This document shows, in pieces, positions 16,258 through 52,456 of a stretch of 64,000 nucleotides of DNA; positions within the stretch are counted from its first letter, which is position 1; every line of letters starts with the position of its first letter. The stretch spans positions 62,001-126,000 of the forward strand of contig NZ_PDOA01000002.1 in the NCBI RefSeq assembly GCF_003116135.1. The letters run 5' to 3'. The notes under the pieces were generated by a model, which was given only the letters and a program-made list of their open reading frames with translations, made no database searches and was not told the origin of the DNA. The position numbers were made by a program, and so were the translations under genes. The DNA comes from Teichococcus aestuarii. GTDB taxonomy: Bacteria; Pseudomonadota; Alphaproteobacteria; Acetobacterales; Acetobacteraceae.

Positions 16258-16371
16258 CTTCTTTTTCTGAAGAAAAAGAAGCAAAAAGACTTTGTCAGTT
16301 TGGCGCCGCGCCCAACGTCAGCGCGGCGCCAACTGATGGAAGTTTTTTGGTCCTTTTTTCCAAAAAAGGAC
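16258..16371 (+). repeat. Family A triple-hairpin repeat, copy A1
   Basis: A 114-bp structured element between convergent genes. The left hairpin is CTTCTTTTTC-tgaa-GAAAAAGAAG (16258-16281). A central GC-rich stem has arms 16296-16311 and 16321-16335 (CAGTTTGGCGCCGCGC paired with GCGCGGCGCCAACTG, one bulged T). The right hairpin is GTCCTTTTTT-cc-AAAAAAGGAC (16350-16371). CAAAAAGACTT and AAGTTTTTTG extend the central stem. The hairpin T-runs make it a plausible two-way terminator for mntD and the helicase gene. Three relatives lie at 42.4, 48.4 and 52.4 kb. Confidence 0.85.
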
Positions 16372-16378
16372 GTCTTCC

Positions 16379-18814
16379 TTACGCTGCCTTCCTCCGGCTG
16401 CTGACGCGCGCCTTCTCCGGCGCGTTCTCCACGCGCCCGCGCCGCTGCTGCTTCAGCACGTCCTCGATCCAGGCATCCAGCCGCGCCGTCTCGGCCTCGG
16501 CCTCGGCGCGGTCGGGGTAGGCGCCCTCGAAGCGCAGCGAGAGCCAGCGCCAGGCGACGAGGCGCTTGTGCACCTTCTCCGCCCGCTGGAGTTCCTCGCC
16601 CGAGGCGCGCTCAGGCGCCGGCAGCCGGCCGGCGAGCGGCGGCATCACCGGCCGCCCCGCGCCGTGGTCCACCGCCCAGCGCGCGAGGCGGGTGATGCCG
16701 TTGTCCCGCTCGTCCACCGGGCACATGGCGTAGGTCCAGCGGTCCAGCAGCGAGAGGTTCGCCACGCCGTCGATGGCGGAGGCGATGGCCATCTGCTGGG
16801 TCAGCTCGGCCAGGCGGTAGTTCGGGTCGTCCTTGCGCAGCACGGCGCGCTGGATGCGGGCGAGCACGCCGAACAGGCTGTCCGTGCCGATCTCCTTGGC
16901 CACGGCGGCGATGATGTCGGCATCCGGCTGCACCTGCGGGCGCAGCTCGGGGGGCGGCGCGTGCGGCGCATCCAGCAGGGCGCGCATCGCCTCCGGGTTG
17001 CCGGCGCCGGCCAGCACGGCGACGACGCCGCCCTCATGGTGGCCGTAGCGCCCGGCGCGCCCGCCGATCTGCTTGATCTCCTGGCTGTTCAGGTCGCGGC
17101 GCTCCTCGCCGTCGAACTTCTTCAGCGTGGAGAAGATGACGCGGCGGATCGGCAGGTTCAGCCCCATGCCGATGGCGTCGGTCGCCACCAGGATATCGGC
17201 CTCGCCGGAGCGGAAGCGGGCGGCCTCGGCGCGGCGCACCTCAGGGGAGAGCGCGCCATAGACCACCGCCACCTTGCGGCCGCGCTTCACCAGCTCCTCG
17301 CGCAGCCCCATCACGTCGCGGCGGGAGAAGGCCACCAGCGCGTCGCCCTCCTTCAGCCCGCCGAGCGGGACGGGGGTGGTGGAGGCGTGCAGCGGGCCCT
17401 TGCGCTGCAGCGAGATCTCCTCGACCTCGTCGCCGCACAGCTCGGCGATGCGCTTGACCATCGGCACGCATTCCGGCGCGCCGAGCACGAAGACCTCGCG
17501 CGCCGGCACGCCCATCAGCGCCGCCGTCCAGGCCGCACCGCGGTCGCGGTCGTGCAGCAGCTGCGCCTCGTCGATGATGGCGACATCCACCGGCGTGTGG
17601 AACGGGCACATCTCCACCGTGGCGGCCAGATGCTTGCTGCCGGGGGCCAGGATGCGCTCCTCGCCGGTGGAGAGCGCCGCCTCGACGCCGCGCGCGGCCA
17701 GCGCCTCGCGGAACTCGTGCGCCAGCAGGCGCAGCGGCGCCAGGGCCAGCCCGCTCTCGGCCCGGGCCAGGCGGTCGAGCGCCGTGTGGCTCTTGCCGCT
17801 GTTGGTCGGGCCGGTGACGATGACGATGCGGCGGATCATCGCCCGCGCCGTGGCGAAGTGGGCGGCGTAGCGGTCGAGCGCCGCGGCGCGGGCCACGGCG
17901 GCGTTGGCCACCTTGCCGCCACGCCCGGCCAGGGCCGCGGCACGCGCCAGCCCCTGCTCGGTGCCGCCGCGCTGCGGCGCGCGGCCGGAGCGGTCGCCCT
18001 GGCGGCTGTCATTCTGGGCGCGCTCGGCCTCGCGCCAGCCGGCCACCTCGGCGCGCAGCGGCTTCAGCTCGGCGGGGTCGAACTCCCAGCGCTCGCGGCC
18101 GCCGGATTTCGGCAGGCGCAGCTTGCGCGCCACCGGCAGCAGCCCGGCGGCCACCCAGCGCAGCGCCTCGCGCTCCGTGCAGCCGAGCAGGCCGGGCAGC
18201 GCCTCGATGCCGACGAGGCTGCGCTCCCACTCGCGCAGGCGCTTCACCTCCTCGCGGCGCTTCTCGCGCGCATTGGCCTCGGCGGCGCGCAGCTCCTGGC
18301 GGCGGCGCTCCTCGACATGCGCGGCGGCGCGGGAGAAGCGGGCGCTCTCGCTCTCGTCCAGCCCGTGCGCCTCGGCCACGGCGCGGGCCAGGGCGGCGTG
18401 CCGCTCGGGCGAGAGGGCGGTGCCGGTGACATCCACCAGCTCGGCCTCCACCGCCTCCAGCGCGGCGCCGGGGCGCGGCGCGGCGTTGCGCAGCCGGGTG
18501 CGGATGGCCGCGTCCAGCGCCGCGCGCAGCCGGTCCTCGGAGGGCTCCGGCTCGTCGATCGTGGCGGCGGCGGCCTCGGCCTCGGCGCGGCGGGCCCAGA
18601 CCTCGCCGGCGCGGTTAGCCATGGCCACCATCGCCGAGGCCCAACCCTTGCGGCGCACTTGGCACAGCGCCTCACGCACCGCTTCGGCATCGGCCGGCAG
18701 GCGGCGGGCGACAAGGCGGATGAGCTGCGGCATCTCGCGCTGCTCCACCCTCAGGCCCGCCGCCAGGATGGCCGCTTCCGCCGGGTTGGCGGGGGGCAGG
18801 GTGTCGTCATGCAT
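16379..18814 (-). CDS. SUV3-like DEAD/DExH-box RNA helicase
   Basis: An 811-residue protein. A long, charged, helical N-terminal region (residues 1-300, partly coiled-coil, Arg/Glu/Ala-rich) precedes a helicase core like mitochondrial SUV3. Walker A is GPTNSGKSHTA near residue 335, the Walker B box is DEAQ, and the motif VI-like segment is QIGGRAGRYG. The C-terminal part resembles the SUV3 C-domain. SUV3 works with RNA-degrading enzymes, and alphaproteobacterial relatives are usually annotated only as helicases. The ATG at 18814 has AGAGGA about 11 bases upstream; the first 58 codons of the longer open frame are probably untranslated. Confidence 0.85.
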   Translation of the reverse strand: MHDDTLPPANPAEAAILAAGLRVEQREMPQLIRLVARRLPADAEAVREALCQVRRKGWASAMVAMANRAGEVWARRAEAEAAAATIDEPEPSEDRLRAALDAAIRTRLRNAAPRPGAALEAVEAELVDVTGTALSPERHAALARAVAEAHGLDESESARFSRAAAHVEERRRQELRAAEANAREKRREEVKRLREWERSLVGIEALPGLLGCTEREALRWVAAGLLPVARKLRLPKSGGRERWEFDPAELKPLRAEVAGWREAERAQNDSRQGDRSGRAPQRGGTEQGLARAAALAGRGGKVANAAVARAAALDRYAAHFATARAMIRRIVIVTGPTNSGKSHTALDRLARAESGLALAPLRLLAHEFREALAARGVEAALSTGEERILAPGSKHLAATVEMCPFHTPVDVAIIDEAQLLHDRDRGAAWTAALMGVPAREVFVLGAPECVPMVKRIAELCGDEVEEISLQRKGPLHASTTPVPLGGLKEGDALVAFSRRDVMGLREELVKRGRKVAVVYGALSPEVRRAEAARFRSGEADILVATDAIGMGLNLPIRRVIFSTLKKFDGEERRDLNSQEIKQIGGRAGRYGHHEGGVVAVLAGAGNPEAMRALLDAPHAPPPELRPQVQPDADIIAAVAKEIGTDSLFGVLARIQRAVLRKDDPNYRLAELTQQMAIASAIDGVANLSLLDRWTYAMCPVDERDNGITRLARWAVDHGAGRPVMPPLAGRLPAPERASGEELQRAEKVHKRLVAWRWLSLRFEGAYPDRAEAEAETARLDAWIEDVLKQQRRGRVENAPEKARVSSRRKAA

Positions 18815-19055
18815 GCGCGGTGAAATCCTCTCGAAGCGGCCCCGAACAGGGCAAGGTGCCTGACATATCGGAAACGGAACCCTCAATGCCAATGCCTGTC
18901 CTGCGTGCAAGCTCCTGGCCAGGGGCATGGCACATATCAGGCCAGGGCGGGACAGGTTACGAATTTTCAACAGCAATTCCGCGTGCAAGGGCCGCGCAAC
19001 CCTGCCGGGCAGGGGGTGTTCACCGCTTCGGGACCGGCAGAAAGGGGCGAGGACG

Positions 19056-20748: not shown

Positions 20749-20778
20749 GCGGTGCGCGCTCCTCTGGCGGGGTATGGC

Positions 20779-24718: not shown

Positions 24719-24727
24719 GGCGGCGCC

Positions 24728-26019: not shown

Positions 26020-26028
26020 CAGGCGGCC

Positions 26029-40099: not shown

Positions 40100-40574
40100 G
40101 CGTCCTCGTGGTCTGCCGTCCGCCGGGCGGTCGGCATCACCTCCATGGGGTGGGTCGGAAGGCGGGGCCTGAACGGACCGGCAGCCCGAACAGGCCGAAA
40201 GGGGTCCAAGGCCATCCGGCCCGCCCCAAAAAAGACACATTGCTGTGCCGCCGCCTCATAGGTTGCAGAGGCTTTAGACGAGCCGGCTGAAATTGTCCAG
40301 CCCAAAGGCAAAATCATCCTGCCCGCGGCCTTCCCCTGGAACAATCAAGAGACCGGGAGCCACGAGAATATGCCGGCAGGAGGCACGGATATTTCATGAA
40401 AAAATAAAACAACGTGCTTTCTATTGCTCCCTTCGATGCGAGCCCGGACTCATATTGTATTCACCGCGCCCACCCGTATGGTTCAAAGAACCGAAAACAT
40501 TCCGGCAAGTAGCCTGCAAGCTGCGGCGGGAGCGAGAGAGGGTTTGACTCCCGGCCCCGCCGCCGCCTACCAAC
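40100..40574. other. Intergenic region: promoters of proV (minus) and of the riboswitch-led cob operon (plus)
   Basis: About 475 bases without a supported gene. From about 40260 to 40510 the sequence is A/T-rich compared with the rest of the window (for example around ATGAAAAAATAAAAC at 40395-40409), as expected for divergent promoters. No clear repeat or regulator box was recognised. Short open frames here run into the riboswitch and are not credible genes. Confidence 0.5.
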
Positions 40575-40765
40575 CCGGCGATGGTCCTTCCGTCCGCGGA
40601 AGGTGAAAAGGGAATGCGGTGACGGGCGGCAGCGCCCCAGGCCGCGGCTGCCCCCGCAACTGTAGGCGGAGAGCGGATCGCCACCATGCCACTGGCGCCA
40701 CGCGGCGCCGGGAAGGCCGGCGCTCCGTGCCTGATCCGCGAGCCAGGAGACCTGCCATCGCCATC
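40575..40765 (+). ncRNA. Cobalamin (adenosylcobalamin) riboswitch aptamer
   Basis: Conserved elements appear in the right order: GGTCCTTCC...GGAAGGTGAAAAGGGAA, GCGGTGACG, GCTGCCCCCGCAACTGTAGGC, GCCACTGGC, GGGAAGGC, and the B12 box AGCCAGGAGACCTGCC at 40741-40756. It lies about 160 bases upstream of the DUF1636 gene and heads the main cob cluster. It is expected to turn off DUF1636-cobW and genes further on when adenosylcobalamin is plentiful. The exact 5' boundary is approximate. Confidence 0.95.
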
Positions 40766-40867
40766 GGATCGTGCCACCGGGCGGGGTGCCCCGGCGGGCG
40801 GCGATGTGCCCGGGCATCCACCCCCGGGCGCCTCGACCCGGCGCCGGAGACGGCACGGGCGGTCGGC

Positions 40868-40917
40868 ACCTCATGCGCGCCAGGCACCCCCGGGTGCCAC
40901 CTGTTCAGGGCTGAGGT
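40868..40917 (+). promoter_or_regulatory. Probable riboswitch expression platform: Shine-Dalgarno sequestering stem
   Basis: ACCTCA (40868-40873) is complementary to TGAGGT (40912-40917), the ribosome binding site 6 bases before the DUF1636 ATG. The intervening sequence forms a perfect hairpin GGCACCC-CC-GGGTGCC (40883-40898). This nested fold would hide the ribosome binding site. Translational control is therefore likely, though I did not compute the fold or find the alternative pairing. Confidence 0.5.
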
Positions 40918-40922
40918 CACGG

Positions 40923-41330
40923 ATGCCGGATACCCCCCTTCCCGCCAAGCCGGTGCTGCTGGTCTGCACCACCTGCCGCGCCGGGCGCACGCTGGAGGAA
41001 GGCGAGACGCCCCCCGGCCGCCACATGCTCGCGGCGCTGGAACAGGCGCTGGCCGCCCACCCGGCGCCGCCGGTGGAACTGCGGCCCGTCACCTGCCTCT
41101 CCGTCTGCCAGCAGGGCTGCGCCGCCGCGATGACGCAGCCGGGCAAGTGGAGCTACCTGCTCGGCCGCCTCTCCCCCGCCCTGGCCGAAGACCTGCTGGC
41201 CTATGGCGAGACCTATGCGGCGCACGCCACCGGCGCCGTGCTGCCCTCCCGCCGCCCGGATTCGCTGCGCAGCGTGGTGCTGGGCCGCCTCCCCTCTCTG
41301 ACCGAGATCCCGAAGGAGAACGCCGCATGA
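40923..41330 (+). CDS. DUF1636 cysteine-rich metal-binding/ferredoxin-like protein
   Basis: A 135-residue protein of the DUF1636 family, often annotated as a metal-binding or thioredoxin-like [2Fe-2S] ferredoxin-like protein. VCTTCRAGRTLEEGE is near residue 14, and CLSVCQQGCAAAM near 60 supplies three more Cys. It is the first gene behind the cobalamin riboswitch and overlaps cobW by 4 bases. That suggests a role in cobalt handling or as an electron carrier for the pathway; the function is not established. The start is ATG 40923 with TGAGGT 6 bases upstream. Confidence 0.85.
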   Translation: MPDTPLPAKPVLLVCTTCRAGRTLEEGETPPGRHMLAALEQALAAHPAPPVELRPVTCLSVCQQGCAAAMTQPGKWSYLLGRLSPALAEDLLAYGETYAAHATGAVLPSRRPDSLRSVVLGRLPSLTEIPKENAA

Positions 41331-42358
41331 GCGCGCTAGAAAAAGTGCCCGCCACCATCGTCACCGGCTTCCTCGGCGCGGGAAAGACCACGCTGCTGCG
41401 CCACCTGATGCAGCACGCCGATGGGCGCCGCATCGCCATCATCGTCAACGAGTTCGGCAGCCTCGGCGTCGATGGCGAGACGCTGAAGGATTGCGGCATC
41501 CCCGGCTGCGAGGCGGAGAACATCGTCGAGCTCGCCAATGGCTGCCTCTGCTGCACCGTGGCGGACGATTTCATCCCCACCATCGAGGCGCTGCTCGGCC
41601 GCGCCAACCCGCCCGAGCACATCCTGATCGAGACCTCCGGCCTCGCTTTGCCCAAGCCGCTGATCAAGGCGTTCAACTGGCCTGCCATCCGCTCCCGCGT
41701 CACGGTCGATGGCGTGGTGACGGTGGTGGACGGCCCCGCCGCCGCCGAGGGCCGCTTCGCCGACGACCCGGAGGCCGTCGCCGCCCAACGTGCCGCCGAC
41801 CCCTCGCTCGACCACGACAACCCGCTCGCGGAAGTGTTCGAGGACCAGCTCGCGAGCGCCGACATCGTCGTGCTCAACAAGGCCGACCTGCTGGACGAGG
41901 CGGCGCTGGCGAAGCTGCGCGCCGAGATCGCGCCGCACCTGCCCCGCGCGGTGAAGATGGTGCCCGCCCGCGAGGGCGCGCTCCCGCCCGACATCCTGCT
42001 CGGCCTCAAAGCCGCCGCCGAGGACGACCTCGCCGCCCGCCCCTCGCACCACGACGCGGAGGATGGCGCGCATGAGCACGACGATTTCGAGAGTTTTGTT
42101 CTTGTCCTGCCGGAATACGACTCGGCCGACGAACTTCTGCACCGCCTTCCAGAGATTGCCGCGCAGCACGACATCCTGCGCATCAAGGGCTTCGTGCGGC
42201 TGAAGGGCAAGCCGATGCGCCTCGCCGTGCAGGGCGTCGGCCGCCGCTTCCGCCAGCATTTCGACCGGCCCTGGAAGGATGACCGCGACGGGCATCTCGT
42301 TGTCATCGGGCAGGCGGGGATGGATCAGGAGGCCATCGCCAAGGCCATCCTGAAGTAA
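41327..42358 (+). CDS. cobW: CobW GTPase, cobalt chaperone
   Basis: A 343-residue G3E-family GTPase. The P-loop is VTGFLGAGKTTLLRHL near residue 12, the metal motif is CLCC in ELANGCLCCTV near 75, and NKAD is the base-recognition motif. A His/Asp-rich stretch (SHHDAEDGAHEHDDFE) lies before the C-terminal domain. CobW proteins deliver Co(II) for insertion by CobN. It starts with ATG 41327 inside the DUF1636 stop. A family A repeat lies between it and cobN. Confidence 0.95.
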   Translation: MSALEKVPATIVTGFLGAGKTTLLRHLMQHADGRRIAIIVNEFGSLGVDGETLKDCGIPGCEAENIVELANGCLCCTVADDFIPTIEALLGRANPPEHILIETSGLALPKPLIKAFNWPAIRSRVTVDGVVTVVDGPAAAEGRFADDPEAVAAQRAADPSLDHDNPLAEVFEDQLASADIVVLNKADLLDEAALAKLRAEIAPHLPRAVKMVPAREGALPPDILLGLKAAAEDDLAARPSHHDAEDGAHEHDDFESFVLVLPEYDSADELLHRLPEIAAQHDILRIKGFVRLKGKPMRLAVQGVGRRFRQHFDRPWKDDRDGHLVVIGQAGMDQEAIAKAILK

Positions 42359-42362
42359 GAAT

Positions 42363-42458
42363 CTTCTTTTTCTGAAGAAAAAGAAGCAAAAAGACTTTTC
42401 GAGTTTGGCGCGCCGCCAACTGACAAAAGTTTTTTGGTTCTTTTTCCCAAAAAAGAAC
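42363..42458 (+). repeat. Family A triple-hairpin repeat, copy A2, between cobW and cobN
   Basis: The left hairpin CTTCTTTTTC-tgaa-GAAAAAGAAG (42363-42386) is identical to A1. The central stem TTGGCG-cgc-CGCCAA is extended by CAAAAAGACTTTT and CAAAAGTTTTTTG. The right hairpin is GTTCTTTTT-ccc-AAAAAAGAAC (42437-42458). It fills the 107-base gap between same-strand cobW and cobN and ends 7 bases before the cobN ATG. Confidence 0.85.
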
Positions 42459-42465
42459 GGAACTG

Positions 42466-45400
42466 ATGCACCTCCTGGTCCGCGAGACACGCAGCCTGGA
42501 CGAGACGGAGCAGGCCGAGGATCTCGGCCACGCCCCGGCCGACCTCGTGCTGCTCTCCTTCAGCGACAGCGACCTCGGCGCCGCCGCCATGGGCTGGTCG
42601 ATGCTGGCGGAGCCGCGGCCCTCGCTGCGGCTGGCCAATCTCGGGCGGCTGCGCCATCCGCTCTCGGTGGATCTCTACGCGGAGGAGACGCTGGCGCGTT
42701 CGCGGGCCGTCGTCATCCGCCTGCTGGGCGGGCTGGAATACTGGCGCTACGGCGCCGAAGAGGTGGCCGCCCTCTGCCGGCGCGAGGGCATCCCCCTCGC
42801 CCTCCTCCCCGGCTGCGGGCGGGACGACGCGAAGCTCGCCGCCCTCTCCACCATGCCACCCACCCTCCATGCGCGGCTGGATGCGCTGCTGCTGGCCGGC
42901 GGGCCGGAGAACCTCGCCGCCGCGCTGCGCCTCGCGGCCCACGCGGCGGGCCTCGGCGCGGATGACGGCGCCGCCCCGCTTCCCCTGCCGCCGGCCGGCG
43001 AGCACCCGCTCGGCCTGGAAGAGAACGACCCCCAGGCCGTCATCGTCTTCTACCGCTCGCACCTCGTCTCGGGCGACATCGCGCCGATGCTGGCGCTCGC
43101 CGCCGCCCTGCGGGCGCGCGGCCTGCGCGTGCGCGGCCTCTACGCCGCCAGCCTGAAGGAGCCCGCCTCCGCCGCGCTGGTGCGGCAGCGGCTGGCGGCA
43201 TGGCGCCCCGCCGTGGTGCTGAACGCCACCGCCTTCTCCGCCCGGCAGGATGGCGCCTCGCCGCTGGAAGCCGCCGGCGCGCCCGTGCTGCAACTCATCC
43301 TCTCCGGCGCCGCGCGCGATCTCTGGGCCGCATCGTCGCGCGGCCTGTCGCAGAGCGACCTCGCCATGCAGGTGGTGCTGCCGGAGCTGGATGGCCGCCT
43401 GCTCACCGCCGCCATCGGCTTCAAGGCGGAGGCCCCGCCCCTGCCTGGCCTTGAGCAGTCCCGCACCCTGCTAGCGCCGGACGCGGCGGGCATCGCCCTC
43501 GCCGCCGAGCGCGCCCTGAGCTGGTCGCGCCTCGCCGCCACGCCACGCGTGGCGCGCCGCGTGGCGGTGCTGCTCTCGGACTATCCGGCGGTGGGCGGGC
43601 AGGCGGGGCACGCGGTGGGGCTTGATTCCTTCGCCAGCCTCGCCGCTTTGCTCGAGGACCTTTCCGCCTCCGGCTACACGCTGGGCGAGGAACGGCCCGA
43701 TGCCGAAGCCCTGGCGCGGGCGCTCACGCGCGGCGAGGCCGCCCCGCTCGTCACCCTGGCCGAGTATCGCGCCGCCCTCGCAACACTGCCCGCCGAACTC
43801 GCGGAAAAGATTACCGCCGCCTGGGGCGACCCGGCGGCGGACCCCGCCTGCCGGGACGGCGCCTTCCATTTCCGCCATCTCCGCCTCGGCAACCTCCTGC
43901 TGGCGGTACAGCCGGACCGTGGCGGCGCGCTGGACCGTTCCGCCGCCTATCACGACCCGGACACGCCGCCGCGCCACGCCTATGCCGCCTTCTACCTCGC
44001 GCTGCGGGGCCGGGCGGAGGCGCTGGTGCACCTCGGCACGCACGGCACGCTGGAATGGCTGCCGGGCAAGGCCGTGGCGCTCTCCGAGGCTTGCGCCCCC
44101 GCCGCGCTGCTGGGCGGGCTTCCGGTGGTCTATCCCTTCATCGCCAACAATCCGGGCGAGGCCGCCGTGGCGCGCCGCCGCCTCGGCGCCGTGACGATCG
44201 GCCACCTGACGCCGCCGCTGAAATCCGCCACCCAGCACGGCGCCGCCGCCGAGCTCGAGCGGCTGATCGACGAATACGCCGCCGCCGACGGGCTGGACCG
44301 CCGCCGCACCGCCCTGCTCCGCCGCGCCATCCTGGAGCGCGCCGAGGCGGCCGGTCTGCTGGAGGAAGGCCACATCCCGCGCGACATCCCGGAGGAGGAG
44401 GCGCTCTCCCGCCTCGACGCTTGGCTGTGCGACGTGAAGGAACTGCAGATCCGTGACGGGCTGCACGTCTTCGGCCGCGCCCCCGCGCCGGAGCGCCGCG
44501 CCCTGCTGCTGGAGGCGCTCTCCCGCGCCACGCCGGGCTTCGATGCCGCGCGGCTCGATGCCTCCCCCCCCGCCGAGCGGCAGGCGCTGCTCGACGCGCT
44601 CGATGGCCGCTTCATCCCCCCCGGCCCCGCCGGCGCCCCCACCCGCGGCCGCGCCGACGTGCTGCCAACGGGGAGAAACCTCTACAGCATCGACCCGCGC
44701 GGCGTGCCCACCCGCTCCGCCCTAGCCCTGGCCGAGAAGGCCGCCGAGGAGCTGCTGCGCCGCCACCGCCAGGAACAGGGGGACTGGCCCCGCCACCTGA
44801 TGCTGGACCTCTGGGGCAGCGCCACGCTGCGCACCGGCGGCGAGGACCTGGCGCTGGCCCTGCTGCTCCTCGGCGCCCGCCCGGTGTGGGATGAAAGCTC
44901 CGCCCGCGTTACCGGCATCGAGATCACGCCGCTGGCGGTGCTGGACCGGCCGCGCGTCGATGTCACGCTGCGCATCTCCGGCGTGTTCCGCGACGCCTTC
45001 CCGGCCCAGATCGCGCTGTTCGACGCGGCGGTGCGCGCCATCGCGGCGCGCGACGAGGCGCCGGAGTGGAACCCCCTCGCTGCCGCCGCGCGCGGGCTGG
45101 AAGGGGCGGCGCTGCGGCAGGCCACGGCGCGCATCTTCGGCGCCGCCCCCGGCCAGTACGGCACGGGGGTGGAGGAGGTGCTGGCCAAGGGCGCCTGGGA
45201 GCGACGCGAGGATCTCGGCCGCGCCTGGATCGCCGGCGCCGCCGCCGCCTATGGCGAGGGGCTGGACGGCACCGCCGCGCCCGAGGCCCTCCAGGCCCGC
45301 ATCGCCCTCGCCGATGCCTTCCTGCACAGCCAGGACCATGCCGAGACGGACCTGCTGGACAGCCCGGAGGTGGCTTCCCATGCCGGGGGCTTCGCCGCCG

Positions 45401-45789
45401 CCGCCGCGCTGCTCGGCGCCACCCCCGCCCTCTACCACGCCGACACCTCCCGCCCCGGCGCCCCCCGCCTGCGCGGCCTGCCCGAGGAAGTGGCCCGCGT
45501 GCTGCGCGGCCGCGCCGCCAACCCGGAATGGATCGGCGGCATGATGCGCCACGGGCACCAGGGCGCCGCGCACATCGCCCGCGCCATCGAGGCGCTGCAC
45601 GGCTTCGCCGCCACCCTGCCCCACCGCTTCGACCGGCAGTTCGACCTGCTGCACGCCGCCACGCTGGGCGACGAGGCCGTGACCGCCTTCATGGCCGAGC
45701 ACAACCCGGAGGCGCTGGCGGCGCTGCGGGCGCGCTTCCACGAGGCGCGGGAGCGGGGGCTGTGGCATTCCCGGCGCAACGATGTCTGA
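42466..45789 (+). CDS. cobN: Cobaltochelatase subunit CobN
   Basis: A 1107-residue large subunit of the aerobic cobaltochelatase, which inserts Co(II) into hydrogenobyrinic acid a,c-diamide together with CobS and CobT (not in this window). Related to magnesium chelatase BchH. Family segments are HLGTHGTLEWLPGKAVALSE near residue 525, YPFIANNPGEAAVARRR near 555, PTGRNLYSIDPRGVPT near 735, and QYGTGVEEVLAKGAW near 895. The start codon follows repeat A2 directly and has only a weak ribosome binding site (GGAA). It overlaps cobG by 8 bases. Confidence 0.95.
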   Translation: MHLLVRETRSLDETEQAEDLGHAPADLVLLSFSDSDLGAAAMGWSMLAEPRPSLRLANLGRLRHPLSVDLYAEETLARSRAVVIRLLGGLEYWRYGAEEVAALCRREGIPLALLPGCGRDDAKLAALSTMPPTLHARLDALLLAGGPENLAAALRLAAHAAGLGADDGAAPLPLPPAGEHPLGLEENDPQAVIVFYRSHLVSGDIAPMLALAAALRARGLRVRGLYAASLKEPASAALVRQRLAAWRPAVVLNATAFSARQDGASPLEAAGAPVLQLILSGAARDLWAASSRGLSQSDLAMQVVLPELDGRLLTAAIGFKAEAPPLPGLEQSRTLLAPDAAGIALAAERALSWSRLAATPRVARRVAVLLSDYPAVGGQAGHAVGLDSFASLAALLEDLSASGYTLGEERPDAEALARALTRGEAAPLVTLAEYRAALATLPAELAEKITAAWGDPAADPACRDGAFHFRHLRLGNLLLAVQPDRGGALDRSAAYHDPDTPPRHAYAAFYLALRGRAEALVHLGTHGTLEWLPGKAVALSEACAPAALLGGLPVVYPFIANNPGEAAVARRRLGAVTIGHLTPPLKSATQHGAAAELERLIDEYAAADGLDRRRTALLRRAILERAEAAGLLEEGHIPRDIPEEEALSRLDAWLCDVKELQIRDGLHVFGRAPAPERRALLLEALSRATPGFDAARLDASPPAERQALLDALDGRFIPPGPAGAPTRGRADVLPTGRNLYSIDPRGVPTRSALALAEKAAEELLRRHRQEQGDWPRHLMLDLWGSATLRTGGEDLALALLLLGARPVWDESSARVTGIEITPLAVLDRPRVDVTLRISGVFRDAFPAQIALFDAAVRAIAARDEAPEWNPLAAAARGLEGAALRQATARIFGAAPGQYGTGVEEVLAKGAWERREDLGRAWIAGAAAAYGEGLDGTAAPEALQARIALADAFLHSQDHAETDLLDSPEVASHAGGFAAAAALLGATPALYHADTSRPGAPRLRGLPEEVARVLRGRAANPEWIGGMMRHGHQGAAHIARAIEALHGFAATLPHRFDRQFDLLHAATLGDEAVTAFMAEHNPEALAALRARFHEARERGLWHSRRNDV

Positions 45790-46990
45790 CCCCGCCCCGC
45801 CCTCCGTGAAGGGCTGGTGCCCGCACCTCTTCGCGCCGATGGAGACGGGGGACGGGCTGCTGCTGCGGGTCAAGCCCTTCGGCGGCCGGCTCTCGGCGGC
45901 GCAGGCGCGGCGGCTGGCCGCCCTCGCCCCCGGCGCGGTGGAGCTGACCAACCGCGGCAACCTGCAACTGCGCGGCGTCGCCCCTGTACAGGCCGATGCC
46001 CTCGCCCGCGCCGTGGTGGAAGCCGGCCTCGCCGACCCCGATGCGGGGCGGGAGGCGCGGCGCAACCTCATCGGCCCGCCGCTGATGGGGGACGATCCAG
46101 CCCTTTCCCCGGGCCTGGCCGAATGGCACGCGGCGCTCTCCGCCCTGCTCGCGGAGGCCGGGTCCCTCCCGGGAAAGTTCGGCGCGGCGCTGGATGGCGG
46201 CGGCGCGCTGCCGCTGGCCGGGTTGGCGGCCGATCTGCTGCTGCGCCTCGCGCCCACGGGCGAGGCGGCGCTGCACCTGCCCGGCGGCCTGCGCCTTGCC
46301 GGCGCCACCCCCGAGGCCCTGGCCCGGCTGGTGGAGAATTTCCGCGCCACCGGCGCAAGGCGGATGCGCGCGGCGCTGGCCGGGCACGGCGCCGCCGCGC
46401 TGCTGGCGGGCACCGGCCTCTCCCCCCTCCCCGCCGCGCCGGAGCCCCTGGCCCCGGAACCGGTGGGCTTCCGCCCCTATCCCGGCACCGGTCGCGGCGC
46501 CTTCGGCCTCGCCCCGGAATTCGGCGTGCTGGACGGGGCGGGCCTCGCCGCCCTGGCGGATCTGGCAGAAGAATTCGGCGACGGCGCGCTGCGCCTCACC
46601 CCCTGGCGCGCGCTGCTGCTGGCGGGCGTCCGCCGCCCTGCCGCGCTGGCGCGGGCCGCCGCCGGCTGGATCACGGACCCGGCCGATCCGCGCCGCCGCG
46701 TGGTGGCCTGCCCGGGCGCGGCGGGCTGTGCCAGCGGCCAGGCCGACACCCGCGCCGACGCCCGCGCCCTGCTGGCGCGCGGGGCGGTGCTGGCGAAGGG
46801 CTTGCTGCATCTCTCGGGCTGCGCCAAAGGCTGCGCGCATCCCGCGCCGGCGGCGGCGGTGCTGGTGGCGGCGCCCGATGGCTATGCCCTGCTGCGCCAG
46901 GCCCGCGCCGGGGATTCACCGCTCCGCACCGGGCTGACCCTTGCCGAAGCGGCGGCCGAACTGGAACGAGCCGGACTGGAACAGGAATGA
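45782..46990 (+). CDS. cobG: Precorrin-3B synthase
   Basis: A 402-residue CobG, the oxygen-dependent enzyme that converts precorrin-3A to precorrin-3B, and a marker of the aerobic pathway. It is related to sulfite/nitrite reductases. [16 protein letters not shown] near residue 55 is a conserved siroheme-reductase motif. The cysteines of [16 protein letters not shown] and [11 protein letters not shown] would hold the 4Fe-4S cluster. It begins 8 bases before the cobN end and overlaps cobH by 4 bases. Confidence 0.93.
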
Positions 46991-47616
46991 GCGGCTACGA
47001 CTACATCCGCGACGGCGCGGCGATCTACGAGAAATCCTTCGCCACCATCCGGGCGGAGGCGGACCTCGCTGGCTTCACCGCCGCCGAGGCGCGTGTCGCG
47101 GTGCGTGTCATCCATGCCTGCGGGCTGGTGGAGGTGGCGCGGCACATCCGCTTCGCCCCCGGCTTCACCGCCGCCGCCGAGGCCGCGCTGCGCGCCGGGG
47201 CGCCGGTGCTGTGCGACGCCAAGATGGTGGCGCAGGGCATCACCCGCCCGCGCCTGCCCGCCGCCAACGAGATCCTCTGCCTGCTGGACGACCCGCGCGT
47301 GCCGGAGCATGCCCGCGCCATCGGCAACACCCGCTCCGCCGCCGCGCTGGATTTCTGGGGGGAGAGGCTACGCGGCGCGGTGGTGGCCATCGGCAACGCG
47401 CCCACTGCGCTGTTCCACCTGCTGGAGCTGCTCGACGCGGGCGCGCCGCCGCCCGCCGCCATCATCGGCCTGCCGGTGGGCTTCGTCGGCGCCGCCGAGT
47501 CGAAGGCGGCGCTGGCGGCGTGGAACCGCGTGCCCTGGATGATCGTGGAAGGCCGGCAGGGCGGCAGCGCCATGGCGGTCGCCGCCGTCAACGCGCTGGC
47601 GACGGAGCGGGAATGA
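46987..47616 (+). CDS. cobH: Precorrin-8X methylmutase
   Basis: A 209-residue CobH/CbiC that moves a methyl group from C11 to C12 to give hydrogenobyrinic acid. The catalytic His is in [16 protein letters not shown] near residue 43, and [19 protein letters not shown] and [16 protein letters not shown] are family motifs. ATG 46987 lies inside the cobG stop; cobI overlaps the end by 4 bases. Confidence 0.95.
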
Positions 47617-48362
47617 CACCCCCTCCCTCGGACTCCCCAGTGGGCACGCTGCACATCCTGGGCGTCGGCCCTGGCGATCCGGAGCTGGTGACGCTGCGCG
47701 CCGCGCGCATCCTGGGGCAGGCGCCCGCCCATGCCTTCTTCGCCAAGCGCGGGCGGACGGGGCATGCGCGCAGCATCGCGGCGCCGCACCTGAACCCGGC
47801 GGCCGAGGAATTGCGCTTCGAATACCCCTACACCACCGAGCTGTCCGTCGAGGATTCCCGCTACGCCGAGGGCATGGCCGCCTTCTACGATTCGTGCGCC
47901 GCCACGCTGGCCGGCCGCCTCGCCGCCGGGCAGGACGTGGCGCTGCTCTGCGAGGGCGACCCCTTCCTCTACGGCTCGGCCATGTACCTGTTCGACCGTC
48001 TGCGGCCGCGCTTCCCGGTGGAGGTGACGCCAGGCATCACCGCCATGTCCGGCTGCTGGTCCCGCGCCCTGGCGCCGATGGTGCATGGCGACGACATCCT
48101 CTCGGTTCTCCCCGCCACCATGCCGGCGGAGGAACTGGCGGCGGCGCTCGGGCGGTGCGACGCGGCGGTGGTGATGAAGCTCGGCCGCAACCTGCCCAAG
48201 CTGCGCGCCGTGCTGGACGCGCTGGGCCTGACGGCGCGCGCCCTCTATGCCGAGCGCGGCACCATGCCGGGCGAGGTGATCCTGCCGCTCGCCGAGCGCG
48301 ACGACAGCCCGGCGCCCTATTTCTCTCTGGTGCTGGTCCCAGGGCGGCAGGGGGCCCGATGA
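47613..48362 (+). CDS. cobI: Precorrin-2 C20-methyltransferase
   Basis: A 249-residue SAM-dependent methyltransferase that adds the C20 methyl to precorrin-2. Family signatures are [22 protein letters not shown] at the N-terminus (GxGxGDxxxL), [20 protein letters not shown] near residue 110, and [10 protein letters not shown]. It overlaps cobH by 4 bases. A reversed family A repeat separates it from cobJ. Confidence 0.95.
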
Positions 48363-48375
48363 CAAGAAAAGCCAT

Positions 48376-48491
48376 GTTCTTTTTTGAAAAAAAGAACCAA
48401 AAAACTTCTGCCCGTTTGGCGTCCCGCTTCGACGGGGGACCGCGCGCAACTGACAAAAGTCTTTTTGCTTCTTTTTCTTCAGAAAAAGAAG
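48376..48491 (-). repeat. Family A triple-hairpin repeat, copy A3 (reverse orientation), between cobI and cobJ
   Basis: Same plan as A1/A2 but inverted. GTTCTTTTTT/AAAAAAGAAC hairpin (48376-48397) comes first, then a central stem with CAAAAAACTT and CAACTGACAAAAGTC arms around GTCCC...GGGGGAC. Last is CTTCTTTTTC-ttca-GAAAAAGAAG (48468-48491). The purine arm AAAGAAGG at its end lies 6 bases before the cobJ ATG and serves as the ribosome binding site. Confidence 0.85.
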
Positions 48492-48498
48492 GCGCTTC

Positions 48499-49257
48499 AT
48501 GTCCTGGCTGAAGATCATCGGCCTCGGCCCCGGCGCGGATTCCCTCCGCACGCCCGAGGCCAGCGCGGCCCTGGCCGAGGCCACCGACATCATCGGCTAC
48601 GGCCCCTATGTCGCCCGTGTGCCGCACGCCCCCGGCCAGCGCCGCCACGAGACGGACAACCGGCAGGAACTGGAGCGCGCCCGCCACGCCCTCGCTTTGG
48701 CGGCGGAGGGGGCGCGGGTGGCGGTGGTCTCCTCGGGCGATGCGGGGGTGTTCGCCATGGCCAGCGCCGTGTTCGAGGCGCTGGAGGGCGGCCCCGCGGC
48801 CTGGCGCGCGCTGGATGTCGCGGTACTGCCCGGCCTCTCGGCCATGTTCGCCGCCGCCGCCCGGCTCGGCGCGCCGTTGGGGCATGATTTCTGCGCCCTC
48901 TCCCTCTCCGACAACCTCAAGCCCTGGCCGCTGGTCGAGCAGCGGCTGCGGGCGGCGGCGGGGGCGGGCTTCGTCATCGCGCTCTACAACCCCATCTCGC
49001 GCGCGCGTCCCTGGCAGCTGGGCCGCGCCTTCGCGATGCTGCGGGAGATGCTGCCGGGAGACGTGCCCGTGGCCTTCGCCACCGCCGTCAGCCGGCCGGA
49101 GGAGGCCATCGCCATCCAGCCGCTCGCGGAAGCCGACCCGGCGCGGGCGGACATGCGGACCCTGGTGATGATCGGCACGGCGCAGAGCCGGCTGGTCCCG
49201 CGCGGCGCGGGGCAACGCCCCTGGCTCTACGCCCCCCGCTCGGCGCGCAGCCCGTGA
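48499..49257 (+). CDS. cobJ: Precorrin-3B C17-methyltransferase
   Basis: A 252-residue ring-contracting methyltransferase. It has LKIIGLGPGADSLRTPEA at the N-terminus, VVSSGDAGVFAMASAVFEAL near residue 75, FVIALYNPISRARPWQLGRA near 155, and TLVMIGTAQSRL near the end. Its ribosome binding site comes from repeat A3. The last 31 bases overlap the end of cobK on the opposite strand. Confidence 0.95.
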   Translation: MSWLKIIGLGPGADSLRTPEASAALAEATDIIGYGPYVARVPHAPGQRRHETDNRQELERARHALALAAEGARVAVVSSGDAGVFAMASAVFEALEGGPAAWRALDVAVLPGLSAMFAAAARLGAPLGHDFCALSLSDNLKPWPLVEQRLRAAAGAGFVIALYNPISRARPWQLGRAFAMLREMLPGDVPVAFATAVSRPEEAIAIQPLAEADPARADMRTLVMIGTAQSRLVPRGAGQRPWLYAPRSARSP

Positions 49258-49982
49258 AGCCAGGCCAGCGCCGCCTCCGCATCCGGCACGGCGCGCAGCC
49301 CCTCGGGCGCGGGGGGGCGGGCCAGCAGCAGCACCGGCAGCCCGGCCTCGCGCGCCGCCTGGAGCTTGGCCTCGGTGGCGCTGCCGCCCGAGTTCTTGCT
49401 CACCAGCACCCCGATGCGGTGGGCGCGCAGCAGGGCGCGCTCCCCCTCCAGCGTGAAGGGGCCGGTGGCGGCGAGCACGGTGGCGCGCGGCGGCAGGCTC
49501 TCCGGCGCGGGCGGATCGACGCTGCGGATCAGGTAGTCGTGCTGCGGGGCGGCGCGGAAGGGGGCCAGCTCCTTCTGCCCCACCGTCAGCCAGACGCGGC
49601 GCGGCGCCTCCCCCAGCGCGGCGGCGATGGCGGGCATGTCGGGGAATTCGCGCCAGTCGTCACCGGGCCCGGCGCTCCAGGCGGGGCGCTCCACCCGCAG
49701 CAGGGCCACGCCCGCCAGGGCGGCGGCCGCGGCGGCATGGCGCGTCATCTGCGCGGCGAAGGGGTGGGTGGCATCGACCAGCGCCGCGATGCCTTCGGCG
49801 CGCAGGTAGGCCACCAGCCCGGCCACGCCGCCGAAGCCGCCCACCCGCGCCGGCAGCGGCTGCGGCAGCGGCGCCCGCGTGGCGCCGGCGAGCGAGAGGG
49901 TGGCGCGGAAGCGCGCATCCCCGGCGAGCGCCCGCGCCAGCGCCCGTGCCTCGGTCGTCCCTCCCAGCAGCAGAACCCGCAT
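49227..49982 (-). CDS. cobK: Precorrin-6A reductase
   Basis: A 251-residue NADPH-dependent reductase that reduces precorrin-6A to dihydroprecorrin-6. Family features are VLLLGGTTEARALARALA at the N-terminus, LVDATHPFAAQMTRHA near residue 90, RVWLTVGQKELAPF near 148, and LVSKNSGGSATEAKL near 208. It is the only minus-strand gene among cobW-cobM. It is convergent with cobJ and divergent from cobL, whose start is 12 bases away. Confidence 0.94.
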   Translation of the reverse strand: MRVLLLGGTTEARALARALAGDARFRATLSLAGATRAPLPQPLPARVGGFGGVAGLVAYLRAEGIAALVDATHPFAAQMTRHAAAAAALAGVALLRVERPAWSAGPGDDWREFPDMPAIAAALGEAPRRVWLTVGQKELAPFRAAPQHDYLIRSVDPPAPESLPPRATVLAATGPFTLEGERALLRAHRIGVLVSKNSGGSATEAKLQAAREAGLPVLLLARPPAPEGLRAVPDAEAALAWLHGLRAERGA

Positions 49983-49993
49983 CGCACCCCGTC

Positions 49994-51601
49994 ATGAGCA
50001 GCACACCCTGGCTCTCCATCATCGGGCTGGGCGAGGATGGCGTCGAGGGCCTCTCCCCCGCCGCGCGCGCCCTGCTGGAGGGGGCGGAGGCGGTGTTCGG
50101 CGGCGCGCGGCACCTGGCGCTGGCGGCGGGGCATCTGAGCGGCTCGGCGCATCCCTGGCCGAGCCCGATGCTGGCCGGGCTGCCCGCCCTGCTGGCCCGG
50201 CGCGGCCGGCCCACCGCCGTGCTGGCCTCGGGCGACCCGTTCTGCTTCGGCATCGGCGCCACGCTGGCGCGGCATGTGGGGCCCGGGGAGTTCCTGTGCC
50301 TGCCGGCGCCCTCGGCCTTCGCCCTCGCCTGCGCGCGGCTGGGCTGGGCGATGCAGGATTGCGCCACGATCTCCTTCTGCGGCCGCCCGCTGGAGCGGCT
50401 GCTGCCGCTGCTGCAGCCGGGCGCGCGGCTGCTGGCCCTCTCGGCCGATGCCGCCACCCCCGCGCAGGTCGCCGCGCTGCTCTGCCGCCACGGCTTCGGG
50501 CCGACGCGGATGGTGGTGCTGGAGGCGCTGGGCGGCCCGCGCGAGCGCCGCCATGAGACCAAGGCGGAAGCCTTCGCCCATGCGCCGGACCCGCTGAACA
50601 TGCTGGCGCTGGAGGTGGTGGCAGGCCCCGCCGCGCGGGTTCTGCCCTTGGCACCCGGCCTGCCGGAAGCGTTCTTCGAGCAGGAGGGGCAGATCACCAA
50701 GCGCGAGGTGCGCGCGGTGACGCTGGCCATGCTGGCGCCGCGCCAGGGGGAGCTGCTGTGGGACATCGGCTGCGGCAGCGGCTCGGTGGCCATCGAGTGG
50801 CTGCTGCGCCACCCGGCCAACCGCGCCATCGGGCTGGAGCCGCGCCCGGAGCGGGCGGCGGGCGCGGCGCGCAACGCGCTGGCGCTGGGCGTGCCCGGGC
50901 TGCGCCTGGTGCGCGCCGCCGCGCCGGAGGGCCTGGCCGGCCTGCCCGCGCCGGATGCTGTGTTCGTGGGCGGCGGCGGCGGGCAGCCCGGCGTGCTGGA
51001 GGCGGCCTGGCAGGCGCTGCGCCCCGGCGGCCGGCTGGTGGCGAATGCCGTGACCATCGAGACCGAGGCCGTGCTCTACGCCGCCCATGCCCGCTGGGGC
51101 GGCGCGCTGACGCGCCTCGGCGTGGAGCGCCTGGACCGGGTGGGCACGATGCACGGCTTCCGCCCGGCGATGACGGTGACGCAATACGTGGCGGAGAAGC
51201 CATGGGCCGAGGCCGGCGCGGCCGCGGCGATGGCTTCCCCCTTGGCGGTGGCCGGGCTCGGCGCGCGCCCCGGCGTCTCGGCGGCGGCCATCGTCGCCCT
51301 GGTGCGGGAGGCCGAGCGGCGCTCCGGCCTCGCGGTGGGGGCGCTCGCCGCGCCCTGGTTCCGCCGCGAGGTGCCGGCGCTGGCCGAGGCGGCGGCCACG
51401 CTCGGCGTGCCGCTGCACTGGGTCGAGGAGGAGGCGCTGAAGGCCGTGCAGCCGCGATGCCCCACCCCCTCCGAGGCGGCGCGCCGCGCCACCGGCTACG
51501 CCGCCATCGCCGAGGGCTGCGCGCTGGCCCTGGGCGGCCGTCTGGCGCTGCCGCGCATCACGGGTGAGGGCGTGACCTGCGCCCTCTCGCTGGAGGAATG
51601 A
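49994..51601 (+). CDS. cobL: CobL-CobE fusion: precorrin-6Y C5,15-methyltransferase (decarboxylating) with C-terminal CobE/CbiG-C domain
   Basis: A 535-residue three-part protein. Residues 1-200 are the CbiE-type methyltransferase ([35 protein letters not shown]). Residues 205-400 are the CbiT-type methyltransferase/decarboxylase ([30 protein letters not shown]). From about residue 411 a CobE domain follows ([40 protein letters not shown]), which is usually a separate small gene. ATG 49994 is used; a GTG at 49946 would overlap the divergent cobK gene. No strong ribosome binding site was found. Confidence 0.92.
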
Positions 51602-51605
51602 AGCC

Positions 51606-52367
51606 ATGACCGTGCATTTCATCGGCGCCGGCCCCGGCGCGCCGGACCTCATCACGCTGCGGGGCCGGGACCTGCTGGCCGCCTGCCCGGTCTGCCTCTA
51701 TGCCGGCTCCATCGTGCCGCCGGCGCTGCTGGCGCATTGCCCGCCCGGCGCCCGGCTGGTGGACACCGCCCCGCTCGACCTCGACGCCATCGAGGCCGAA
51801 TACCTCCGCGCCCACGCGGCGGGGCAGGATGTGGCGCGGCTGCATTCGGGCGACCTCTCCGTCTGGTCGGCCATGGCGGAGCAGGTGCGGCGGCTGGAGC
51901 GCCACGGCATCCCCTACACCGTGACGCCGGGCGTCCCCGCCTTCGCCGCCGCCGCCGCCGCCCTCGGGCGGGAGCTGACGGTGCCGGAGCTGGCGCAGAG
52001 CGTGGTGCTCACGCGCATCTCCGGCCGCGCCTCCGCCATGCCGCCGCGCGAGACGCTGGAGGCCTTCGGCGCCACCGGCGCCACGCTGGCGCTGCACCTG
52101 GCCATCCACGCGCTGGGGCGGATCGTCGAGACCCTCACCCCGCTTTACGGCGCCGATTGCCCGGTGGCGGTGGTGGTGCGCGCCTCCTGGCCGGATGAGC
52201 GGGTGGTGCGCGGCACACTGGCCGATATCGCGGCGAAGATGGAGCAGGCACCCGCCGAGCGGACGGCGCTGATCCTGGTCGGGCCCGCCCTGGCGCCGGA
52301 GGGCTTCCGCGAGAGCGCGCTCTACAGCACGGATTATCAGCGCCGCTTTCGCGGGCGGGATGATTGA
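51606..52367 (+). CDS. cobM: Precorrin-4 C11-methyltransferase
   Basis: A 253-residue SAM methyltransferase. It has [22 protein letters not shown] at the N-terminus, [36 protein letters not shown] near residue 80, and the late [13 protein letters not shown] typical of CobM/CbiF. It starts 4 bases after the cobL-E stop, with GAGGAA upstream. A truncated family A repeat follows the stop. Confidence 0.95.
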
Positions 52368-52378
52368 AGAAAGGGAAG

Positions 52379-52456
52379 GGTTCTTTTTTGGAAAAAAGAA
52401 CCAAAAAACTTTTGCCAGTTTGGCGTGGCGCCAAACGCGAAATGTCTTTTGCTTCT
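52379..52456 (-). repeat. Family A repeat, truncated copy A4, between convergent cobM and cbiD
   Basis: GGTTCTTTTTT-gg-AAAAAAGAACC (52379-52402) is an 11-bp stem. The central stem TTTGGCG-tgg-CGCCAAA and the tail ATGTCTTTTGCTTCT follow. The second A/T-rich hairpin is missing after CTTCT: at that point the cbiD stop codon (52455-52457) begins. The intact hairpins probably terminate both convergent genes. Confidence 0.8.

Follow-up and report, generated by a model that had tools for sequence, protein, structure and literature searches.

What kind of element is the structured repeat that recurs in the window analysed here (a 64,000-nt stretch of the Teichococcus aestuarii genome), and why should it be found both between the ends of genes and inside a run of cobalamin genes? 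The initial annotation, made from the sequence alone, described four copies and proposed either a MITE/REP-like element or a domesticated terminator or processing signal. All four copies are present, although the start of copy 4 had been placed one base early (it is 52380, not 52379), and three of them do lie in the main cob cluster, at the cobW-cobN, cobI-cobJ and cobM-cbiD junctions. The copies, together with the riboswitch that heads the gene run containing copies 2 and 3, are as follows:

16258-16371, plus strand: copy 1, full length, between convergent gene ends; hairpin 1 at 16258-16281, centre at 16282-16349, hairpin 3 at 16350-16371; left neighbour a gene resembling metal ABC transporter permeases (stop 16247-16249), right neighbour a minus-strand ORF without family match (stop 16379-16381)
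40565-40773, plus strand: cobalamin riboswitch (RF00174, 113.6 bits) upstream of cobW; context, outside the element
42363-42458, plus strand: copy 2, with the complete plan and a short centre; it follows cobW (stop 42356-42358) and precedes cobN (start 42466); hairpin 1 at 42363-42386, centre at 42387-42436, hairpin 3 at 42437-42458
48376-48491, minus strand: copy 3, inverted and full length; it follows cobI (stop 48360-48362) and precedes cobJ (start 48499); hairpin 3 at 48376-48397, centre at 48398-48467, hairpin 1 at 48468-48491
52380-52456, minus strand: copy 4, inverted and truncated; cobM (stop 52365-52367) and cbiD (stop 52455-52457, within the hairpin 1 remnant) converge on it; hairpin 3 intact at 52380-52401, hairpin 1 a remnant

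The repeat unit is a cassette of 96-120 nt, in which an A/T-rich outer hairpin 1, a GC-rich centre and an A/T-rich outer hairpin 3 follow each other, the two outer ends being inverted versions of one another and the most conserved part of the whole. This fixed plan folds as had been claimed on the strand that presents the CTTC hairpin first, with z-scores of -7.1, -3.0, -3.3 and -3.5 for copies 1 to 4 (200 dinucleotide shuffles); the fold of copy 3 was equalled by one of its 200 shuffles, and its opposite strand gave a z-score of -2.1. The outer-hairpin pattern has six matches in the window, all within the four copies, and none in 100 shuffles. One G-U pair of the lower stem is invariant (27/27) and turns into a mismatch when the opposite strand is read, which makes the structure of the cassette incompletely symmetric. 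On direct reading, the central stem is followed by AAAG and then by T6 (plus strand) or TCT5 (minus strand), plus a second T-tract. At the curated threshold, Rfam recognized nothing in the whole window except the cobalamin riboswitch, and all matches from a permissive Rfam search around copy 2 remained under the gathering scores of their families.

The repeat family is larger than the initial annotation reported. A model search located 47 credible places in the T. aestuarii genome (5.2 Mb; a 48th, with E 0.35, was excluded), of which 38 (E < 1e-17) are practically complete, one of these having a damaged hairpin 3, and 79 copies in a relative, G015; the prospect, considered at the outset, that neither the genome nor its relatives would hold further copies is thereby dismissed. 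Family matches occur in 61 of 200 Acetobacteraceae genomes (family assignment by named matches) and were not found in 288 further genomes from the class, while among same-genus relatives 10 of 16 have matches. Gluconacetobacter liquefaciens DSM 5603 is one of the strains with copies. These per-genome copy counts are lower bounds and absence in a genome is not final; the genome searches scored a restricted set of candidates in each genome and used stricter filters once more than 40 genomes were involved. In the open-licence PMC literature searched, we found no description of an element of this plan, nor of a terminator family with three hairpins so arranged.

Within the T. aestuarii genome the two outer hairpins are nearly invariant, a conservation which is partly ascertainment, since the search model favours intact ends. 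Over 135 elements (38 own, 50 of the 79 G015 copies and 47 from other genomes, leaving out two further elements that are empty at contig positions), pairing is kept in 1212/1215 and 1067/1080 cells of the two hairpins, taking in each case the hairpin length with the best pairing. In other genera, the outer hairpins have changed on both sides of pairs, and these compensatory changes dispose of the other prospect envisaged initially, an absence of covariation. Copy 1 itself carries a double change from T-A to C-G in hairpin 3; the own-genome double changes counted in pairs 4-7 of hairpin 3 come from damaged hairpins and were excluded as evidence. A comparison with less ascertainment, albeit not free of it (gene conversion between copies may also contribute), is provided by 29 orthologous pairs from the sister species G010 and G015, in which the outer segments differ by 2.9% and 2.1%, the centre by 9.8%, the adjacent 15-nt flanks by 16.8% and 16.3%, and the wider flanks by 5.4% (outer segments versus flanks, Fisher p 8e-36). 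The outer parts thus change 6-8 times less than the adjacent spacer, and therefore look functional.

In the GC-rich centre, the sequence is free and self-complementarity is usual. The claim that the middle varies while its complementarity is kept holds across Acetobacteraceae genomes, but only partly within T. aestuarii. In the family-wide arm swap, which used 94 of 99 collected elements (5 were dropped for centre length), own arms reached -16.95 vs -10.83 for swapped ones (0/10000 permutations); 80/94 centres fold below -10 kcal/mol and 8/94 have next to no central stem, with three elements of genome G033, whose centre is 31 nt, falling outside this test. For the 38 copies of T. aestuarii, own arms gave -21.9 kcal/mol, a value reached by 0/10000 permutations, and swapped arms -19.1 kcal/mol, but the own right arm was the best partner in just 2/38 copies. 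Between the two sister species, compensation was better in 12, equal in 8 and worse in 9 of the 29 orthologous pairs, i.e. there was no excess of central-stem compensation in this set. Consensus folding of a MAFFT alignment, in which the misaligned centre left a single double-change pair, was set aside for these arm-swap tests.

Where the cassettes lie relative to genes was mapped for 190 elements with strict motifs at both ends (single-end pieces excluded) from six locus groups, including 28 elements of T. aestuarii, using a crude, GC3-based gene caller; a separate placement of G015 copies on contig C4 covered 67 and excluded nine short ones. Of the 190 elements, 75 are between convergent genes, 87 between co-directional genes, 7 between divergent genes, 11 inside called genes and 10 at edges, vs 81 convergent, 288 co-directional and 115 divergent among the other neighbouring gene pairs of the same loci (divergent depletion, Fisher p 5e-10). 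Many sites are common to G010 and G015, which makes these counts dependent on each other; without G010 they become 54 convergent, 74 co-directional and 5 divergent. In an earlier pass over all 47 own copies, convergent gene pairs accounted for 24, co-directional pairs for 18 and divergent pairs for none, with 2 copies inside genes and 3 at edges. The NCBI gene annotation around two Pseudoroseomonas plasmid copies agrees, one of them lying at a convergent site, at distances of 2 and 9 nt from the genes, and the other at a co-directional site. Of 237 adjacent stop codons, 196 are no more than 15 nt away from the element, and the distance from the stop codon to the central stem is 24-45 nt in 196/237 (median 31). 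The stop is TAA in 119/237 adjacent genes vs 33/449 others. At co-directional sites the element has no preferred orientation (43 same vs 44 opposite). A test on tRNA 3' ends was unhelpful, the three cases within 250 nt being mixed (one hairpin-1 piece after a 3' end, two elements before a 5' end).

A location just after stop codons, with enrichment at convergent gene pairs and depletion at divergent ones, is what would be expected of a terminator, and our preferred reading, in which we place slightly less than even confidence, is that of a dispersed, Acetobacteraceae-specific gene-end cassette that serves as an intrinsic terminator in both directions, with a strength that varies. The earlier suggestion of a domesticated terminator or processing signal is upheld to the extent that location, two-way layout and conservation in place all fit it. 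In this mechanism, a transcript coming from either side would contain, after the stop codon, an A/U outer hairpin, then the GC-rich stem and then a U-tract in two halves, the later half being formed by the 5' arm of the outer hairpin on the far side. Each outer hairpin would consequently have two jobs: for one direction, a spacer that keeps some 31 nt between stop codon and terminator stem, a distance at which the last ribosome would be unable to block stem folding, and for the other, a T-rich arm supplying the second half of the U-tract. Such a double use would account for the outer hairpins being conserved in sequence and pairing, and the centre in pairing only. For comparison, in E. coli a terminator placed 5 bp after the stop worked at <10%, and one placed 28 bp after it at ~90% (PMC4824070).

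The cob copies speak against this terminator reading. Copies 2 and 3 end 7 nt before the next start codon, in the cob gene run, and relatives lacking the element at these two junctions mostly have short gaps instead. Strong termination at such places would be expected to silence cobN and cobJ, which are both intact in T. aestuarii; the cassette might in this operon be a leaky attenuator, tuning the ratio of upstream to downstream product. Many further co-directional sites also leave scant room for a promoter behind the element. A terminator scan of positions 40000-54000 found 6 sites, not above chance (shuffles, 4.4 +/- 2.4); within the copies it flagged only an outer hairpin of copy 2 and one of copy 4, never the central stem. 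With tens of copies (47 here, 79 in G015), moreover, the cassette is too rare to be the general terminator of these genomes.

The dispersal of the family raises the possibility of a non-autonomous mobile element of REP/BIME or MITE type, whose outer hairpins would be acted upon by a transposase or recombinase; copies would be tolerated behind stops and the ends conserved through enzyme recognition. We regard this as unlikely, if still deserving of attention. The copies are indeed dispersed, extragenic, in both orientations and patchy among species, their mutually inverted ends are the most conserved part, and nearly all sites differ between species: only 4/79 G015 copies have both flanks in common with T. 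aestuarii (three of these four sites being cob copies) and 3 more have one. Sites without the element also exist. At the cobW-cobN junction of 14 same-genus genomes, the element is found in 4, a gap of 4-16 nt in 6 and 50-152 nt of other sequence in 4, and relatives lacking the element at cobI-cobJ have gaps of 0-50 nt in nine cases; the cobM-cbiD junction of G010 and G015 carries a full copy in the orientation opposite to that of copy 4. A clean empty site in a sister species was sought at one site, where G015 has, in place of the element, ~450 nt of different sequence containing a small ORF, which leaves the inserted ends undefined. Speaking against mobility, direct repeats at the ends, measured in 38 T. 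aestuarii and 71 G015 copies, do not exceed the length obtained with shuffled partners, hence no target-site duplication was detected, and a search restricted to the Y1 family (PF01797, RAYT-type) found no transposase in this genome, with one borderline match (G006) in 17 genus genomes and 5/14 control genomes positive; on this result, membership in the RAYT-associated REPs was rejected. The best pair of own copies is 96.5% identical and no centres are identical in the 703 pairs of the 38 copies, which argues against a recent burst here. The ends also remain conserved in place, and at least one flank is shared with G015 by 35 of the 41 G010 copies examined (the listed copies are more numerous; both flanks, 29), indicating slow turnover. 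The MITE/REP-like proposal thus keeps its dispersed, extragenic palindromes, a REP/BIME trait, and loses the duplication, the Y1 enzyme, the sequence tags and the identical centres. A BIME consists of an inverted hairpin pair around a variable centre, and the cassette resembles it in this and in lying at gene ends, but this genome has no RAYT and the majority flank consensus, which is A-rich (AAGAAT ahead of hairpin 1, AAGG ahead of hairpin 3), has no GTAG or CGTC tag; in the relevant part of a survey, CGTC repeats are reported missing in Acetobacteraceae (PMC3733652). More speculatively still, and at a probability that we consider low, dispersal might proceed without RAYT and without a classical transposon: a protein of the Acetobacteraceae, or host replication/recombination, could recognize the folded outer hairpins and copy the cassette behind stops, the centre changing freely, thereby delivering a two-way terminator and often a TAA, with the cob genes keeping cassettes as attenuators.

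Two further explanations seem to us improbable. The cassette could be a DNA-level site, a cruciform or A-tract putatively bound by a nucleoid protein or topoisomerase, which would absorb supercoiling where transcription units meet; enrichment between convergent genes, unbiased orientation, palindromes with compensatory changes and the copies inside gene runs, which a pure terminator leaves unexplained, are consistent with it, but the invariant G-U pair suits RNA better than DNA and the tight adjacency to stop codons would be unnecessary. Slightly more doubtful again is an RNA acting on the upstream message, as a 3'-end stabiliser or processing signal or as a modulator of translation termination. 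Its position directly after the stop codon, the excess of TAA and its harmlessness within operons would suit such a role, but A/U-rich outer hairpins would probably be weak exonuclease blocks, both orientations are equally frequent, and the TAA may merely derive from the A-rich end of the element.

Returning to the terminator reading, the cassette resembles known bidirectional intrinsic terminators in having, as far as the sequence is read by eye, a stem with A-tract and U-tract sides, and in being placed after stops with enrichment at convergent gene pairs (parts of PMC7566282 and PMC1590033; in the former, convergent gene pairs have more than their share of the mapped Zymomonas terminators). 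It differs from them in forming one repeat family whose A/T outer hairpins, one on either side, are near-invariant, which extends through a bacterial family and which has some copies inside gene runs. It is also similar to termination hairpin clusters in having several adjacent hairpins close after the stop, but those, as presented in part of PMC8355165, are predicted in inter-operon regions generally, whereas the cassette is one conserved repeat family. The outcome matters since this gene-end element extends across much of a bacterial family, including industrially used species. If the terminator reading is true, two-way terminators would be available for these hosts, annotators would be alerted that a repeated structure interrupts cob and other gene runs, and the cassettes would offer a natural experiment on whether cells keep terminators at a distance from stops, escaping ribosome interference.

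DNA uptake signals are ~10 nt long and present in very high copy number. In Neisseria and Haemophilus, their close inverted repeats form terminator-like hairpins (part of PMC2267715), a likeness to the cassette, which in contrast is a 96-120 nt unit with copies in the tens and, given these numbers, is unlikely to be an uptake signal. An outer closing stem between the flanks (a cloverleaf) was dropped, being weak in T. aestuarii (own -8.92 vs swapped -7.97, matched by 75/5000 permutations) and absent in G015 (4516/5000 permutations match the own value). Compared with composition shuffles, the flanks of both species pair slightly better, which purine-rich left and pyrimidine-rich right flanks would lead one to expect.

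In the window the element is present as four copies, all found where the initial annotation had placed four copies of one element:

Copies of the element and the cobalamin riboswitch (window coordinates)
16258-16371, forward strand: copy 1, outside the main cob cluster
42363-42458, forward strand: copy 2, cobW-cobN junction
48376-48491, inverted: copy 3, cobI-cobJ junction
52380-52456, inverted and truncated: copy 4, cobM-cbiD junction
40565-40773: cobalamin riboswitch, at the head of the cob gene run holding copies 2 and 3

A full copy consists of outer hairpin 1 (24 nt), a centre whose stem stands between an initial A-tract (CAAAAAGACTTT) and a final T-tract (AAAGTTTTTTG), and outer hairpin 3 (22 nt). 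The outer-hairpin pattern matches the window six times, always within the four copies, and not once in 100 shuffles. Folded on the strand where hairpin 1 comes first, copies 1-4 were all better than their dinucleotide shuffles (z of -7.1, -3.0, -3.3 and -3.5, respectively), while copy 3 gave -2.1 on the opposite strand. No Rfam family fits the element at the Rfam thresholds, in the window or around copy 2. The cbiD stop codon (52455-52457) lies inside the remnant of outer hairpin 1 in copy 4, and therefore element sequence seems to form the end of this gene.

A covariance-model search of the genome and its relatives, as the initial annotation had proposed, was performed with a model trained on 27 copies. 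The genome (5.2 Mb) has 47 credible places, of which 38 are essentially full length, and 17 of 77 relatives have matches: 10/16 of the same genus, 7/29 of other genera of the family and 0/32 of the other families searched. A wider draw within the family gave matches in 61 of 200 genomes (this one counted) and 35 of 102 genera; a class-wide draw of 289 genomes, with at least three others listed as the same family, gave none but this genome. Taxon names were taken from an exact scan with the 35-nt left end, which matches at least 112 stretches; among the 80 matches listed are Roseomonas sp. GC11, Rhodovarius, Rhodovastum, Gluconacetobacter, Asaia and Neokomagataea, together with many Acetobacteraceae, Rhodospirillales and other alphaproteobacterial or proteobacterial MAGs. 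Copies are also present on two Pseudoroseomonas cervicalis plasmids; the phage records searched with copy 1 gave no match. Same-strand pairs at close spacing were seen at locus L316 and, in a relative's genome, at G345:C37:16913-17198. As for the spread of the element, there is no target duplication at 38 copies of this genome and 71 of the relative G015, and no Y1 transposase in this genome (one borderline match among 17 genus genomes); CGTC-tagged repeats are missing in Acetobacteraceae, according to the available text of a survey (PMC3733652).

Hairpin 1 has the exact consensus in 37 of the 38 full copies of this genome. Averaged over pairs of these copies, identity reaches 99.6% in hairpin 1, against 92.5% in hairpin 3, 67.2% in the centre (identical in 0 of 703 pairs) and 51% in the left flank of 20 nt. 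Since the search model favours intact ends, we compared orthologous copies in G010 and G015, two sister species that are 95% identical in the cob region. When 41 G010 copies were examined against 79 G015 copies, at least one flank was common in 35 and both in 29. Over the 29 orthologous pairs, mismatches amount to 2.9% for hairpin 1 plus A-tract (three pairs that carry a deletion of 7-8 nt included), 2.1% for hairpin 3 plus T-tract and 9.8% for the centre; the 15 nt next to the element differ by 16.8% and 16.3% on the two sides, and the wider flanks by 5.4%. The low mismatch at the ends, against that of the adjacent 15 nt, argues that selection, or else conversion among copies, preserves them within a spacer that otherwise changes fast. 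Ten G015 copies (L229-L232, L234-L238 and L240) have lost the A-tract beside hairpin 1 by a short deletion; in one of the two directions, but not in the other, this would leave a shorter T-tract. At one shared site (L185 in G010, L163 in G015) the centre types differ, which suggests that the centre was replaced or converted between intact ends.

Outer-hairpin pairing was followed in 135 elements (38 here, 50 from G015 and 47 from other genomes), using a script that chooses the hairpin length with the best pairing; 1212/1215 cells are paired in hairpin 1 and 1067/1080 in hairpin 3. Other genera have both-side changes in hairpin 1 (pairs 1, 2 and 9) and in hairpin 3 (pairs 1, 2, 3 and 8), and copy 1 has a double change of the same sort. 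In the central stem of 94 elements, complementarity is retained although the centre sequences are nearly unrelated (own arms -16.95 versus swapped arms -10.83 kcal/mol; 0/10000 permutations), the stem being almost absent in eight. Within this genome the values are -21.9 and -19.1, and no compensation is visible in the G010/G015 orthologous pairs (12 better, 8 equal, 9 worse). The covariation that the initial annotation had claimed thus holds across genera and is weak inside one genome.

Gene context was analysed for 190 elements whose two ends are intact: 28 come from this genome, 55 from G015, 41 from G010, 10 from other same-genus genomes, 4 from other genera and 52 from named records. They lie between convergent (75), co-directional (87) or divergent (7) genes, inside a called gene (11) or at edges (10), versus 81 convergent, 288 co-directional and 115 divergent among the other gene pairs of the same loci. 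In an earlier pass, which took in all 47 places of this genome, 24 were convergent, 18 co-directional, 0 divergent, 2 inside and 3 at edges, and the NCBI annotation of the two plasmid copies (one convergent site, one co-directional) agrees with this picture. Of 237 adjacent stop codons, 196 lie no more than 15 nt from the element, and the distance from stop codon to central stem has a median of 31 nt (24-45 nt in 196/237); both stops are at most 20 nt away at 50/75 convergent sites. Orientation in co-directional pairs is even (43 versus 44). TAA stops end 119/237 adjoining genes versus 33/449 others (Fisher p 1e-36), or 87/182 versus 31/405 with G010 left out. The A-rich flank consensus (taAgAAT ahead of hairpin 1 in G010 and G015; AAGG ahead of hairpin 3) suggests that the element end often supplies the stop codon.

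We favour the reading of the element as a putative two-way terminator of variable strength, its layout being nearly the same from either side: A-tract, stem, U-tract and a second U-tract in the outer-hairpin arm. The available text of an E. coli study (PMC4824070) gives terminator efficiencies of <10% at 5 bp behind the stop codon and ~90% at 28 bp, because near the stop the last ribosome prevents folding. The outer hairpin sets the central stem ~31 nt from the stop in both directions, and keeping that distance may be its function. The copies within gene runs are the main difficulty for a terminator. The start codon of cobN follows copy 2, and that of cobJ copy 3, after 7 nt, with similar short gaps at other sites, so that at least these copies must let the polymerase through; given the riboswitch at the head of the run, copies 2 and 3 are probably within a regulated transcription unit. 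Moreover, a terminator scan (window 40000-54000) was not above chance and did not single out the central stem, and tRNA neighbours were uninformative on termination. The element may therefore have a REP-like role, or one at the DNA level.

At the cobW-cobN junction, same-genus genomes have a 4-16 nt gap (six), 50-152 nt of other sequence (four) or an element with a different centre (four: G005, G006, G010 and G015). At cobI-cobJ, nine are without the element and two with it; one has a single end next to a run of N and two lack the flanks. The copies that G010 and G015 have at cobM-cbiD are in the opposite orientation to copy 4, and G003 and G013 have another palindromic repeat there. Only 4 of 79 G015 copies have both flanks in common with copies here (one flank in 3 more), and three of these four are cob copies, which indicates that between species most sites turn over, with the cob sites persisting or being refilled. 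On the main G015 contig, 6 of 67 placed copies lie within one 18-kb cob stretch, matched in 2/2000 random placements; this count was made post hoc and omits nine short copies. The six copies around the G015 cob genes (L166, L204, L209, L212, L228 and L231) have the rarer centre type, five by a motif found in 15/79 copies and the sixth as a close variant, as if homogenised or locally spread.

No description was found in the open literature, searched for the element sequences and for repeats and terminators in these bacteria, or in the available text of a review on acetic acid bacteria (PMC8102297). We file the element with known kinds, namely gene-end palindromic repeats and two-way terminators; its conservation pattern should be unusual to specialists. 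The window also holds a second palindromic repeat family:

Repeats with core GGGGGAATNNATTCCCCC (window coordinates)
11925-11942: palindromic repeat
30941-30958: palindromic repeat
32433-32450: palindromic repeat
37953-37970: palindromic repeat

These four matches (≤2 mismatches) compare with 0.03 expected, and three have a T/C-rich tail. The palindrome at the cobM-cbiD junction of G003 and G013 resembles this family, and gene ends in this group may therefore carry alternative repeat families.
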